Assembly: GCF_000014005.1 (NCBI RefSeq)
Contig: NC_008009.1
Span: 1,240,001 to 1,304,000 of the forward strand
Direction of reading: 5' to 3'
From: Candidatus Koribacter versatilis Ellin345
GTDB taxonomy: Bacteria > Acidobacteriota > Terriglobia > Terriglobales > Acidobacteriaceae
DNA length: 64,000 nt
The notes under the pieces are model-generated. The model was not told where the DNA came from. It did no database searches and worked only from the letters and a program-made list of their open reading frames with translations. Positions 27,107 to 31,076 of the stretch are shown in pieces. Numbering within the stretch: the first letter of the stretch is position 1; every line of letters begins with the position of its first letter. The position numbers and the translations under genes are program-made.

Positions 27107-27142
27107 TCGCGAGGCAAGCCACGTAGTGGCGCCAGTTGGTAG

Positions 27143-27199
27143 CCCAGCGCGTGAGCGCTGGGAAAAGCCGCACAAATCTTTAAGAGCCCCGTCAGGGGC
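27143..27199. repeat. Two short palindromic repeats (CCCAGCGC-GTGA-GCGCTGGG and GCCCC-GTCA-GGGGC)
   Basis: Two small perfect stem-loops with similar tetraloops (GTGA, GTCA) lie in the 125-bp gap after rlmB. They resemble the dispersed palindromes elsewhere in the window. No U-run follows either, so they are not convincing terminators. Confidence 0.45.
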
Positions 27200-27231: not shown

Positions 27232-28932
27232 GTGATTCGACCTAGATTGAAGTTTATCCGGAGCATTCTCGTTCTCTTTGTCCTCTCCGCAGCGGCGTTT
27301 GGCGCGGACCGCAACGCGCTTACGTTCACCCAATACAACTTGAAGACGACCGTCACGCCGACCTCGCAGGGCTTTGAGGCCGAGGGCACGGTCACGCTAC
27401 GCAACGATAGCGCCACGCCACAGAAGTGGGCGGTTTTGCAGGTCTCTTCGTCGCTGGAGTGGCGCTATGTGCGCGTGGGCAGCGAGGAAGTGCAGTTCAT
27501 CGCGCAGCCGTACACAACGGACATTGATCACACCGGCGCAGTGAGTGAGGTGACGGTCACGCTGCCGAAGCCGCTGGAGCCGAAGCAGAGCGTGACGCTG
27601 AACATCGCGTACGGCGGGACGATCGCGCTCGATGCCAAGCGCCTGACGCGCGTCGGTACGCCCGATGCCGATGCGACGCGCTCCGACTGGGACCAGGTCT
27701 CGAATGACTTCACTGCAGTGCGCGGGCTCGGATTCGTTGCGTGGTATCCGGTGGTGATGGAAGCCGCGAGCCTGAGCGACGGCAACGCGGTGTTCTCGAC
27801 GATTGGCCAGTGGCGCAGCCGCAACCGCGGTGCGGAGATGCACCTGGCGATTTGTTTGCCCGCGAAAGAAGCCGGCGGACGCATGATCGTTGCGAATGGC
27901 ACGGAATCGCAGGCGAAGCCAGACGAGGGATGCAAAGCGTACGACTATCGCTTGGGGCCGATGACCGTGCCGGCGTTCGTAGTCGGAAATTTCCAGGAGC
28001 TGAAGCGGCCGGTGCTGACGGTGTATCACGAGCAAGGGCACACCACGGCGGCTCAGGATTATGCGGCGGAGTTTGAACGCCTGCAACCGTTCGCCGCAGG
28101 ATGGTTTGGCGCACCCAAGGAGCACGCGATGTACGTCGAGCTGACCGGCCGCGCGGTGACGCCATACGAGACCGGCGCGCTGATGTTCGCGCCGCTCGGG
28201 CAGGGCGAGCGCATGGCGACAGATTTGTCGGCGGCGTACCAGCTCGGGCAGGTTTCGGTGCAGTCGTTCCGGCCCTGGATTGATTACGGGACGGCGCACT
28301 TCCTGCAGTTCCTGGTGGTGGAGCGCGAAATGGGACGCGCGAATGCACTGGCGTATTTGCAGCAGTACGCCCGTCCGCTGGCGACGGCGGACAAGGATCC
28401 GGCGAAGGACCCGGCGGCGCAGTCGCTGATCAACACCGACGACGAGCTGTTGTATCGGGGTAAGTCGCTGTTCGTGTGGTCGATGCTGCGCGATTTGGTG
28501 GGCGACGAGGCGCTTTCGGCAGCGGTGCAAAGCTACCGTCCGGAAGACGATCACGATGCGAGCTATATGCAGAAGCTGATCGAGAGCCATGCGCACAAGG
28601 ACCTGGAGTGGTTCTTCGATGACTGGGTCTATCGCGACCGCGGGCTGCCGGATTTCCACATTGTCAGTGCGTATCCCCGGCAGATTTTGGGCGGACAGTA
28701 CCTGGTCACGATCACAGTCGAGAATTTGGGGAGTGCAGCGGCGGAAGTGCCGGTGTCGGCGCAGGTGAATGGTGGAGAGAAATCCGTGCGCATTTTTGTG
28801 AAGCCGGGCGAGAAGGCGACCGCGCGCATCAACACGCAGCAGGTGCCGACGTCAGTAACGGTGAACGACGGCAGCGTTCCGGAGCGCGACATGACCAACA
28901 ACAAGATGGAAGTGAAGCCGCCCGCGCAGTAA
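27232..28932 (+). CDS. Exported M1-peptidase-like protein that has lost the zinc site
   Basis: A GTG start leads into a signal peptide (FIRSILVLFVLSAAAFGA). The order of parts fits gluzincin M1 peptidases: an N-terminal beta-sandwich, then GLGFVAWYPVV, then the helical catalytic region. Where HExxH is expected the sequence reads AAYQLGQVS (YQLGQ at 336-340), and the WxNEGFA motif reads WIDYGTAHF (349-357), so both histidines and both glutamates are gone. Helical residues 360-470 remain intact, and a CARDB-like beta domain with VTVENLGSAAAEVPV forms the C-terminus. It is probably a binding or scaffold protein derived from an aminopeptidase; this assignment rests on motif order only. Confidence 0.7.
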   Translation: MIRPRLKFIRSILVLFVLSAAAFGADRNALTFTQYNLKTTVTPTSQGFEAEGTVTLRNDSATPQKWAVLQVSSSLEWRYVRVGSEEVQFIAQPYTTDIDHTGAVSEVTVTLPKPLEPKQSVTLNIAYGGTIALDAKRLTRVGTPDADATRSDWDQVSNDFTAVRGLGFVAWYPVVMEAASLSDGNAVFSTIGQWRSRNRGAEMHLAICLPAKEAGGRMIVANGTESQAKPDEGCKAYDYRLGPMTVPAFVVGNFQELKRPVLTVYHEQGHTTAAQDYAAEFERLQPFAAGWFGAPKEHAMYVELTGRAVTPYETGALMFAPLGQGERMATDLSAAYQLGQVSVQSFRPWIDYGTAHFLQFLVVEREMGRANALAYLQQYARPLATADKDPAKDPAAQSLINTDDELLYRGKSLFVWSMLRDLVGDEALSAAVQSYRPEDDHDASYMQKLIESHAHKDLEWFFDDWVYRDRGLPDFHIVSAYPRQILGGQYLVTITVENLGSAAAEVPVSAQVNGGEKSVRIFVKPGEKATARINTQQVPTSVTVNDGSVPERDMTNNKMEVKPPAQ

Positions 28933-29146
28933 GTTGCACTTTTGTGGGAGATATCGCGACACGATAGAAATGTTGTCAATAGGCAAAAATCGCCGATTTC
29001 TCCGCAAGCTGATGAATCGCGGGGAAATATAAATTCCGGAAAAGTGCAATTTTCCGGTGCTCAACTTGATATTCTAGAAATAGGGGGAACGAAAAGAGTT
29101 CCGCCGAGAGATTCGAGGGCGACATCGAGAGATGAGCGCCCTTTTT
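28933..29146 (+). repeat. Tandem element, copy 1
   Basis: This 214-bp unit begins GTTGCACTTTTGTGGGAG and is repeated immediately downstream. It contains the 10-bp inverted repeat TTGCACTTTT (28934-28943) / AAAAGTGCAA (29040-29049), a 20-codon open frame (28970-29032), a TATTCT -10-like hexamer (29070-29075), and two hairpins, the second followed by a U-run. The first ~125 bp are nearly identical to copy 2. Confidence 0.85.
29082..29146 (+). ncRNA. Candidate small RNA, copy 1
   Basis: The predicted transcript would start about 7 nt after TATTCT. It has hairpin 1 GGAAC (29086-29090) / GTTCC (29098-29102) and hairpin 2 with outer stem AGGGCG (29116-29121) / CGCCCT (29137-29142) and inner stem CATC / GATG closed by a GAGA loop. 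Five T residues follow, as in an intrinsic terminator. No known family is recognised and transcription is inferred. Confidence 0.45.
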
Positions 29147-29363
29147 GTTGCACTTTTGTGGGAGAAATCGCGACACGACAAAAATGTTGTCAATAGGCAG
29201 AAATTACCGATTTCGCCGCAAGCTGATGAATCGCGGGGAAATATAAATTCCGAAAAAGTGTCCGGTTTACCCCCTTCAACTTGGTATTCTGGATATAGAT
29301 GGGAACGAGAGAAGTTCCCGCTGAAAGTTTTGAGGGCGCCGTCGAGAGACGGGTGCCCTTTTC
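29147..29363 (+). repeat. Tandem element, copy 2
   Basis: It starts right after the U-run of copy 1 with the same GTTGCACTTTTGTGGGAG. The 20-codon frame (29184-29246) is retained without indels. The right inverted-repeat arm has decayed to AAAAGTG (29254-29260). TATTCT recurs at 29285-29290, and both hairpins are kept although their sequences have drifted. Confidence 0.85.
29297..29363 (+). ncRNA. Candidate small RNA, copy 2
   Basis: Hairpin 1 is GGGAAC (29301-29306) / GTTCCC (29314-29319), one pair longer than in copy 1. Hairpin 2 has outer AGGGC (29333-29337) / GCCCT (29355-29359) and inner CCGTC / GACGG around the same GAGA loop (29344-29347), then four T residues. The inner stem differs from copy 1 by compensatory changes. 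The start point is estimated from the TATTCT box. Confidence 0.45.
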
Positions 29364-29419: not shown

Positions 29420-30121
29420 ATGGATGCAGGGTTGGCAAAGATCGATTGGGAGCGCGTGGCGCAGGAGTTGGACGAGCGTGGCTGCGCGACCACGGGCGTG
29501 GTTCTGGAGCGCGGAATCTGTGATGAGTTGGCGCGTGGGTACGGCAACGACGCGCAGTTTCGCAGCAAAGTCGTTATGGCGCGGCATGGGTTTGGACGCG
29601 GCGAGTACAAGTACTTTGCATATCCGCTGCCGGAAATTGTTCAGCGGTTGCGGACGGAACTGTATCCGCGCTGCGCTGCTGTCGCGAACGGATGGCAGGA
29701 AAAGTTGGGACTGGACAAACGCTTTCCGCGCGAGCATGGCGAGTACCTGAAGCTGTGCCATGCGGCAGGACAGACGCAGCCTACGCCGCTGTTGCTGAAG
29801 TACGGTGCGGATGATTACAACTGCCTGCATCGCGATTTGTATGGCGACTTGGTGTTTCCGCTGCAGGTGGCGTTCTTGCTGAGCACGCCTGGCGAGAATT
29901 TCACGGGAGGAGAGTTCGTGCTGACGGAACAGCGTCCGAGGATGCAGTCGCGGGTGGAAGTGGTGCCGCTGCGGCAGGGCGAGGGCGTGATCTTCGCGGT
30001 GAACGAGCGTCCGGTACGCGGAACGAAAGGCGTTTATCGGGTAGGCATGCGGCACGGAGTGAGCCGGCTTCGCTCGGGGCAGCGATTCACGATGGGGATT
30101 ATTTTTCATGACGCACTCTGA
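29420..30121 (+). CDS. 2-oxoglutarate/Fe(II)-dependent oxygenase
   Basis: The iron ligands fit HxD...H: CLHRDLYGD gives His137 and Asp139, RHGVSRL gives His212, and RSGQRFTMGI gives the 2OG-binding Arg222. The double-stranded beta-helix strands are visible as VFPLQVAFLLSTP and GEGVIFAVN. The family covers prolyl hydroxylases and DNA/RNA demethylases. The stop lies 14 bp inside the next gene, which encodes AlkB, so a shared role in nucleic-acid repair or modification is plausible. The ATG at 29420 is preferred over a TTG two codons upstream. Confidence 0.85.
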   Translation: MDAGLAKIDWERVAQELDERGCATTGVVLERGICDELARGYGNDAQFRSKVVMARHGFGRGEYKYFAYPLPEIVQRLRTELYPRCAAVANGWQEKLGLDKRFPREHGEYLKLCHAAGQTQPTPLLLKYGADDYNCLHRDLYGDLVFPLQVAFLLSTPGENFTGGEFVLTEQRPRMQSRVEVVPLRQGEGVIFAVNERPVRGTKGVYRVGMRHGVSRLRSGQRFTMGIIFHDAL

Positions 30122-30766: not shown

Positions 30767-30942
30767 GAGTCGCTTCACCACAGAGGCACAGAGGCGCAGA
30801 GTTTTGGGGGAGATGTGACCCGAATTTCTCTGCTTCTCTGTGCCTCTTTCGTGAGCCTGAGCTTTCTTGGCGCGAGTGCTGAGTAGGGGGCGATAGGGGT
30901 CCTTCGACTCCGTCGCTTCGCGACTCCGCTCAGGATGACAGG
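30767..30942. repeat. Two dispersed repeats downstream of alkB
   Basis: The first part has TTCACCACAGAGGCACAGAG and, about 50 bp on, the inverted form CTCTGTGCCTCTTTCGTGAG. The second part (about 30888-30942) has ATAGGGGTCCTTCGACT, a small hairpin and CTCCGCTCAGGATGACAG, also seen near 35307 and 39058. They fill most of the 324 bp before msrP. Confidence 0.6.
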
Positions 30943-31076
30943 GGCGGGAAATCTGTTTGGGTTGCTGGGACGTAGTCTTTAAGGAACGTTGATGAATGGG
31001 CACATTCGAGTGGTGAACAACACTTGATGTAACCTTTCGCGGCGCCGGCCATCCAACTTTGTAGTGGGGTGTGGGC

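Follow-up and report, generated by a model that had tools for sequence, protein, structure and literature searches.

A dispersed promoter-like element followed by terminator-like hairpins in one acidobacterial family, present as a tandem pair in Candidatus Koribacter versatilis

The window analysed here, 64,000 nucleotides long, comes from the genome of Candidatus Koribacter versatilis Ellin345 (G000 below; other genomes and loci of the survey carry G and L numbers), which consists of one contig of 5,650,368 bases. Between a peptidase-like gene that ends with the stop codon at 28932, on the same strand as the hairpins described below, and the start, near 29420, of an oxygenase-like gene lie two direct repeats of 214-216 nucleotides that together span 28933-29362 (Table 1); both gene names come from reading the translations, without a family search. 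At the corresponding site of a congener (G001), the peptidase gene and the next conserved gene are 209 bp apart, and both repeats, as well as two genes that are present in between in G000, are missing. A coding interpretation of the repeat (ORFs of 84 and 92 amino acids) was rejected because single-base variation in the length of the element that it contains would break the shared frame. Rfam recognizes a single family in the window, the Acido-Lenti-1 RNA (RF01687) at 27117-27162 on the minus strand (53 bits; gathering score, 37); in the region of the two repeats, the Rfam search yielded no family at the gathering threshold and, at relaxed thresholds, three matches at chance level (E 2.1 to 6.6), none of them real. 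Two other short repeats in the window, at 30770-30811 and 30889-30944, have many matches in G001 and other genomes of the family.

Table 1. Features of the tandem units, in window coordinates
Feature	Position	Strand	Remarks
Unit copy 1: promoter element plus short transcribed part (predicted) with two hairpins	28933-29146	+	direct repeat, 83% identity to copy 2
Unit copy 2, in tandem	29147-29362	+	direct repeat, 83% identity to copy 1
115-bp element, copy 1 (second core type GTGCAATTTTCCGG)	28972-29087	+	model R1, E 2.0e-23
115-bp element, copy 2 (common core type GTGTCCGGTTTACCCCC)	29186-29301	+	model R1, E 1.7e-27
Extended -10 box TG-A-TATTCT, copy 1	29067-29075	+	motif of 153 copies; putative start near 29082
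Extended -10 box TG-G-TATTCT, copy 2	29282-29290	+	motif of 153 copies; putative start near 29297
Hairpin 1, copy 1	29083-29105	+	fold; missing from most other element copies
Hairpin 1, copy 2 (GGGAAC/GTTCCC)	29301-29319	+	fold
Hairpin 2 and T run, copy 1	29117-29146	+	intrinsic-terminator-like; dG -15.3 in the terminator search
Hairpin 2 and T run, copy 2	29334-29362	+	intrinsic-terminator-like; dG -20.0 in the terminator search

In each unit, hairpin 2 lies about 30 nucleotides behind the 115-bp element; it reads GGGCGACATCGAGAGATGAGCGCCC at 29117-29141 in copy 1 and GGGCGCCGTCGAGAGACGGGTGCCC at 29334-29358 in copy 2, with a GAGA loop in both cases. A preliminary description of this DNA had recognized these two hairpins and their loops, within a span (29116-29359) that indeed holds both but runs from copy 1 to copy 2 and is not one structure. 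The same description passed over the T tracts directly after the stems (29142-29146 in copy 1 and 29359-29362 in copy 2), an omission that alters the interpretation because, with a T run after each hairpin, an intrinsic terminator is the best reading. The stems that it compared, CATC/GATG and CCGTC/GACGG, belong to real hairpins but are of unequal length: the internal loop of copy 1 (A6 / A19 G20) is matched by an additional pair in copy 2, which itself can adopt two almost equivalent registers with a single bulged G.

The two hairpins differ in 5 of 25 positions (A6C, A8G, T17C, A19G, C21T). The replacement of an A-T pair by G-C that was reported initially is borne out at positions 8/17 (A8/T17 to G8/C17, A-U to G-C as RNA) and is the one double change; the conversion of G5-C21 to G-U in copy 2 had been left out, and A6 with A19 of copy 1 gives way to a possible C-G pair. 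All nine pairs of the copy 1 hairpin are kept in copy 2. When five random substitutions were introduced into copy 1 (200,000 trials), all nine pairs survived in 1.6% of the trials, at least one double change arose in 13%, and the two coincided in 0.97%, which, for a single pair of sequences, is suggestive but not decisive evidence of structural selection. The single comparison and the frequency of chance double changes leave some room for plain duplication and drift, with the double change a coincidence; we nevertheless consider this explanation highly improbable, given that none of the five substitutions is incompatible with pairing, that the combination is so rare, and that other genomes also have terminators at the equivalent place. 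Selection on structure over sequence, as originally proposed, is backed more by the other copies of the element than by this one base pair; the hairpin stems of different copies are not alignable base by base. The segments 29080-29146 and 29296-29365 fold better than every one of 200 dinucleotide-shuffled versions, with z-scores of -4.41 and -4.85, respectively. A simple consensus scan of the region reported 0 promoters and three terminator-like sites, all on the minus strand, and listed neither of the plus-strand terminators; it counts only stems extendable without such bulges and requires a -35 hexamer.

A sequence-only model (R1), built from an alignment of 12 copies of the 115-bp element, detected 13 copies in G000 and gave matches in 82 of the 150 family genomes searched, with at most 24 candidates scored per genome. 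In a sample of the phylum, 17 of 297 genomes contained matches (16 in the family, one marginal and partial), and an exact three-box pattern matched 17 contigs in the genome collection, all from Acidobacteria. The 170 nhmmer matches, in 156 loci, yielded 153 distinct copies in 143 loci; these are the best-scoring matches, not a random sample, and the conservation of their motifs is partly ascertained because the search model was itself derived from copies of this kind. The strongest features of the 153 copies are, besides the -10 box, TTGTCAA at about -109, the A/T block AAATATAAA near -58 to -50, TG(T/G)C near -38, and CCCC near -25; the spacing is fixed, and the length is 114-116 in 152 copies. 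The -10 form is TG-n-TATtCT, with G97, A100, and T104 present in 100% of the copies and T96 in 99%, and both window copies carry the TGn before TATNNT that characterizes sigma70 extended -10 promoters. No -35 hexamer is apparent in the element. In the 117-bp upstream part, four pairs were predicted, none with a double change; with no supported RNA structure, the element is read as DNA, namely, as a putative extended -10 promoter, on the strength of the extended -10 box and of what follows. Past about 12 nucleotides from the predicted start, no sequence is common to the copies, as judged from the 151 that fit the -10 pattern (where, by construction, its values are 100%), and L003 and L081, although orthologous, are unlike each other in the putative transcribed part.

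Upstream of the -10 box, the two window copies differ in core type: the core of copy 1 (29040-29069) also occurs at locus L004, and that of copy 2 (29255-29284) is the common type. The recurrence at L004 makes the copies look mosaic, and gene conversion may have contributed to them. The preliminary view that the copies are something other than a duplication is not supported: their sequences indicate that promoter and hairpin were duplicated together, in tandem. Further tandem pairs of this kind are found at L072, L074, L025, and L044.

Terminator-like hairpins are a regular companion of the element. In a search for a single hairpin with a T run in the 120 nucleotides behind the element, 71 of 153 copies reached dG <= -15, compared to 4 of 153 after one shuffle each. 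In G000, 12 of 13 copies are followed by a hairpin and T run at <= -10 within 110 nucleotides, and 11 of 13 at <= -12, with stems that differ between the copies; at <= -12, terminators are much rarer in two genomes, G001 (3 of 22 copies) and G016 (7 of 19), which speaks against a universal unit. In many G001 copies (for example, L006, L011, and L012), the terminator is replaced by another conserved block, AATATTTTG ... AACAATAGA ... GGGGGAGGGGGTACCC, 57-330 nucleotides behind the element. At locus L005, where the element occupies 1529-1645, it is flanked on both sides by an identical terminator stem, GCGAGGCGCGAGCCTCG, as if part of a unit had been duplicated.

The most stringent test of the association comes from an orthologous locus. 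A gene with a sigma70-region-4-like product is present in 113 of the 150 family genomes, nearly always once, and in the 30 best-scoring loci from these 113 genomes, the element lies directly behind it in all 30; the last columns of the model for this gene overlap the first bases of the element, so that the selection of loci favours those bearing the element. A terminator with dG <= -12 follows in 22 of the 30, against a shuffle mean of 1.35 (20 shuffles each). The window hairpins could, in principle, be ordinary 3' terminators of the peptidase-like gene that were duplicated: they lie on its strand, after its stop codon, and no other terminator is seen by eye between the gene and the hairpins. 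Such hairpins, however, follow the element even at loci where the ORF to its left is oriented away from it (L047, L049, and L019 among them), and hairpins at dG <= -15 are ten times rarer in the 120 nucleotides upstream of the element (7 of 153), which makes this origin very unlikely. Both window hairpins are stable, G+C-rich, and followed by a T run, as intrinsic terminators are; pairing is retained while the letters vary freely, in agreement with the preliminary description, and the structure retained is, most simply, an intrinsic terminator.

In relatives of G000, a PDDEXK_5-like nuclease ORF lies behind the element in 43 of 143 loci, and all 58 matches to such ORFs are on the strand of the element; two of these ORFs were confirmed as PF11645 (E 1.8e-22 and 4.8e-22). 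Conversely, in 20 of the 30 PF11645 loci returned for 38 listed matches, the element is located upstream on the same strand. In 29 of the 32 cases in which both could be placed, the end of the terminator precedes the nuclease motif. There are, however, 0 matches to PF11645 in G000, its congener G001, and G016, which all hold many copies of the element. At 17 loci, where the element lies behind the sigma-like gene, it is followed by a small ORF (two ORFs of this type had no match in Pfam), and the order sigma70-region-4-like gene, element, terminator, small ORF is conserved (L230, L231, L247, L234-L263); at L019 and L228, a dual-specificity-phosphatase-like gene comes next at this type of locus. 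At L233, the element is followed by a gene for a phage-type lysozyme. Outside the loci with nuclease or small ORFs, the next ORF of 100 amino acids or more, as delimited by a crude caller, shares the strand of the element in 38 copies, lies on the opposite strand in 38, and is undetermined in 8.

Taken as sequence evidence, these observations are probably best explained if hairpin 2 acts as intrinsic terminator in a short unit driven by the putative promoter. Each copy would be a self-contained transcription unit in which RNA polymerase starts at the extended -10 promoter (TGnTATTCT, with no good -35 and with upstream boxes to about -109) and makes an RNA of approximately 65 nucleotides, stopping at the second hairpin. 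Tandem duplication produced the two window copies, and the terminator stem would have changed its letters while keeping its pairing because what termination requires is a stem followed by a U run rather than a given sequence. The unit stands either alone or in front of a gene (the PDDEXK_5 nuclease, the small ORF or, once, the lysozyme), which then lies behind a putative promoter plus a terminator.

Such an arrangement might serve to gate expression: transcription from a constitutive promoter would be halted at once by its terminator, and the gene would be expressed only on read-through mediated by some factor, as by Q at lambda pR'-tR'; copies without a gene would be left over as relics or serve as decoys. 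This proposal, which is compatible with the terminator reading and adds a purpose to it, is in line with the uniform orientation of the nuclease ORFs, the position of the terminators upstream of the nuclease motif, and the small ORFs and the lysozyme gene behind the unit, but we entertain it only tentatively. No antiterminator was identified; the one candidate neighbour is the sigma-like gene, and it was rejected as a regulator of all copies because G016, G069, and G002 lack it and yet contain at least 10 copies each. Furthermore, the even split in the strand of the next ORF implies that many copies gate nothing. That same lack of strand preference of stand-alone copies relative to their neighbours, together with the intergenic position and an own terminator, would suit a family of regulatory small RNA genes that share the promoter and are free in their RNA bodies, but this is unlikely in view of the absence of common sequence beyond the first 12 or so nucleotides and the divergence of L003 from L081.

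The copies multiply or are homogenised within lineages, since 78 of the 82 copies compared across six genomes are most closely related to another copy of their own genome. Two loci of G007 align from TTGTCAA through the end of the nuclease gene, and at L049 two genes that abut in G001 are separated by 387 bp that include the element, an unpolarised difference that may be a gain or a loss. This is the only clean empty-site comparison (the flanks of L179 matched on one side, and those of L050 on the downstream side), and no target duplication was recognised there. Movement of some copies is likely by these comparisons. Conceivably, then, the units are relics of a mobile nuclease cassette in which the element, the terminator, and the PDDEXK_5 gene spread together, with solo copies, such as those in the window, having lost the gene or being moved in trans; the frequent presence of the element upstream of PF11645 genes fits this scenario as well. 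Against it, neither terminal inverted repeats (the termini of the copies being undefined) nor target duplications were recognised, some copies occupy orthologous places across many genera, the copy-rich genomes G000, G001, and G016 have no PF11645 gene, and the L049 change lacks a direction.

With regard to the purpose of the unit, we give the same low credence to a mobile-cassette relic and to control by read-through, and less to small RNA genes. A composite view, offered as a speculation with little confidence in the whole, is that these are promoter-terminator modules of one acidobacterial family that spread with PD-(D/E)XK nuclease genes and are gated by some read-through factor, the promoter being conserved and the stem evolving freely under pairing alone. 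One promoter with many independently evolved terminators would be a natural test of the requirements for termination, and the link to nuclease genes provides a handle on how such units spread.

A literature search, with most subscription papers outside its scope, found no description of the element. As in known intrinsic terminators, a G+C-rich stem with a short loop is directly followed by a T run; these, however, usually lie behind a gene, whereas here they are found approximately 30 nucleotides behind a conserved putative promoter. Homing-type endonuclease genes of the PDDEXK_5 type (PF11645, a family that includes I-Ssp6803I) lie behind the element in several relatives but are absent from G000. 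Mobile attenuators, that is, terminators upstream of insertion-sequence genes, are similar (PMC2965389) in placing a terminator before a probably spreading gene and in being repeated in the genome. Their terminator sequences, however, are highly conserved and precede transposase or insertion-sequence genes (PMC2965389), whereas here the promoter is conserved, the stems differ, and the gene is a PDDEXK_5 nuclease in 43 of 143 loci and in none of G000. The REP/GTAG repeats reported for Koribacter (PMC3733652) are likewise short, dispersed, intergenic repeats in Acidobacteria, but REPs are palindromes of 20-40 bp, in contrast to the 115-bp, directional, non-palindromic element. Unlike lambda pR'-tR' with Q (PMC4604602), the units come without an identified Q-like factor or pause element and in many dispersed copies, many of them without a gene. 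They resemble that system in having a sigma70-type promoter with an apparent intrinsic terminator immediately behind it, the layout of Q-gated late promoters, and the lysozyme gene behind the unit at L233 adds to the likeness to lambdoid late promoters.
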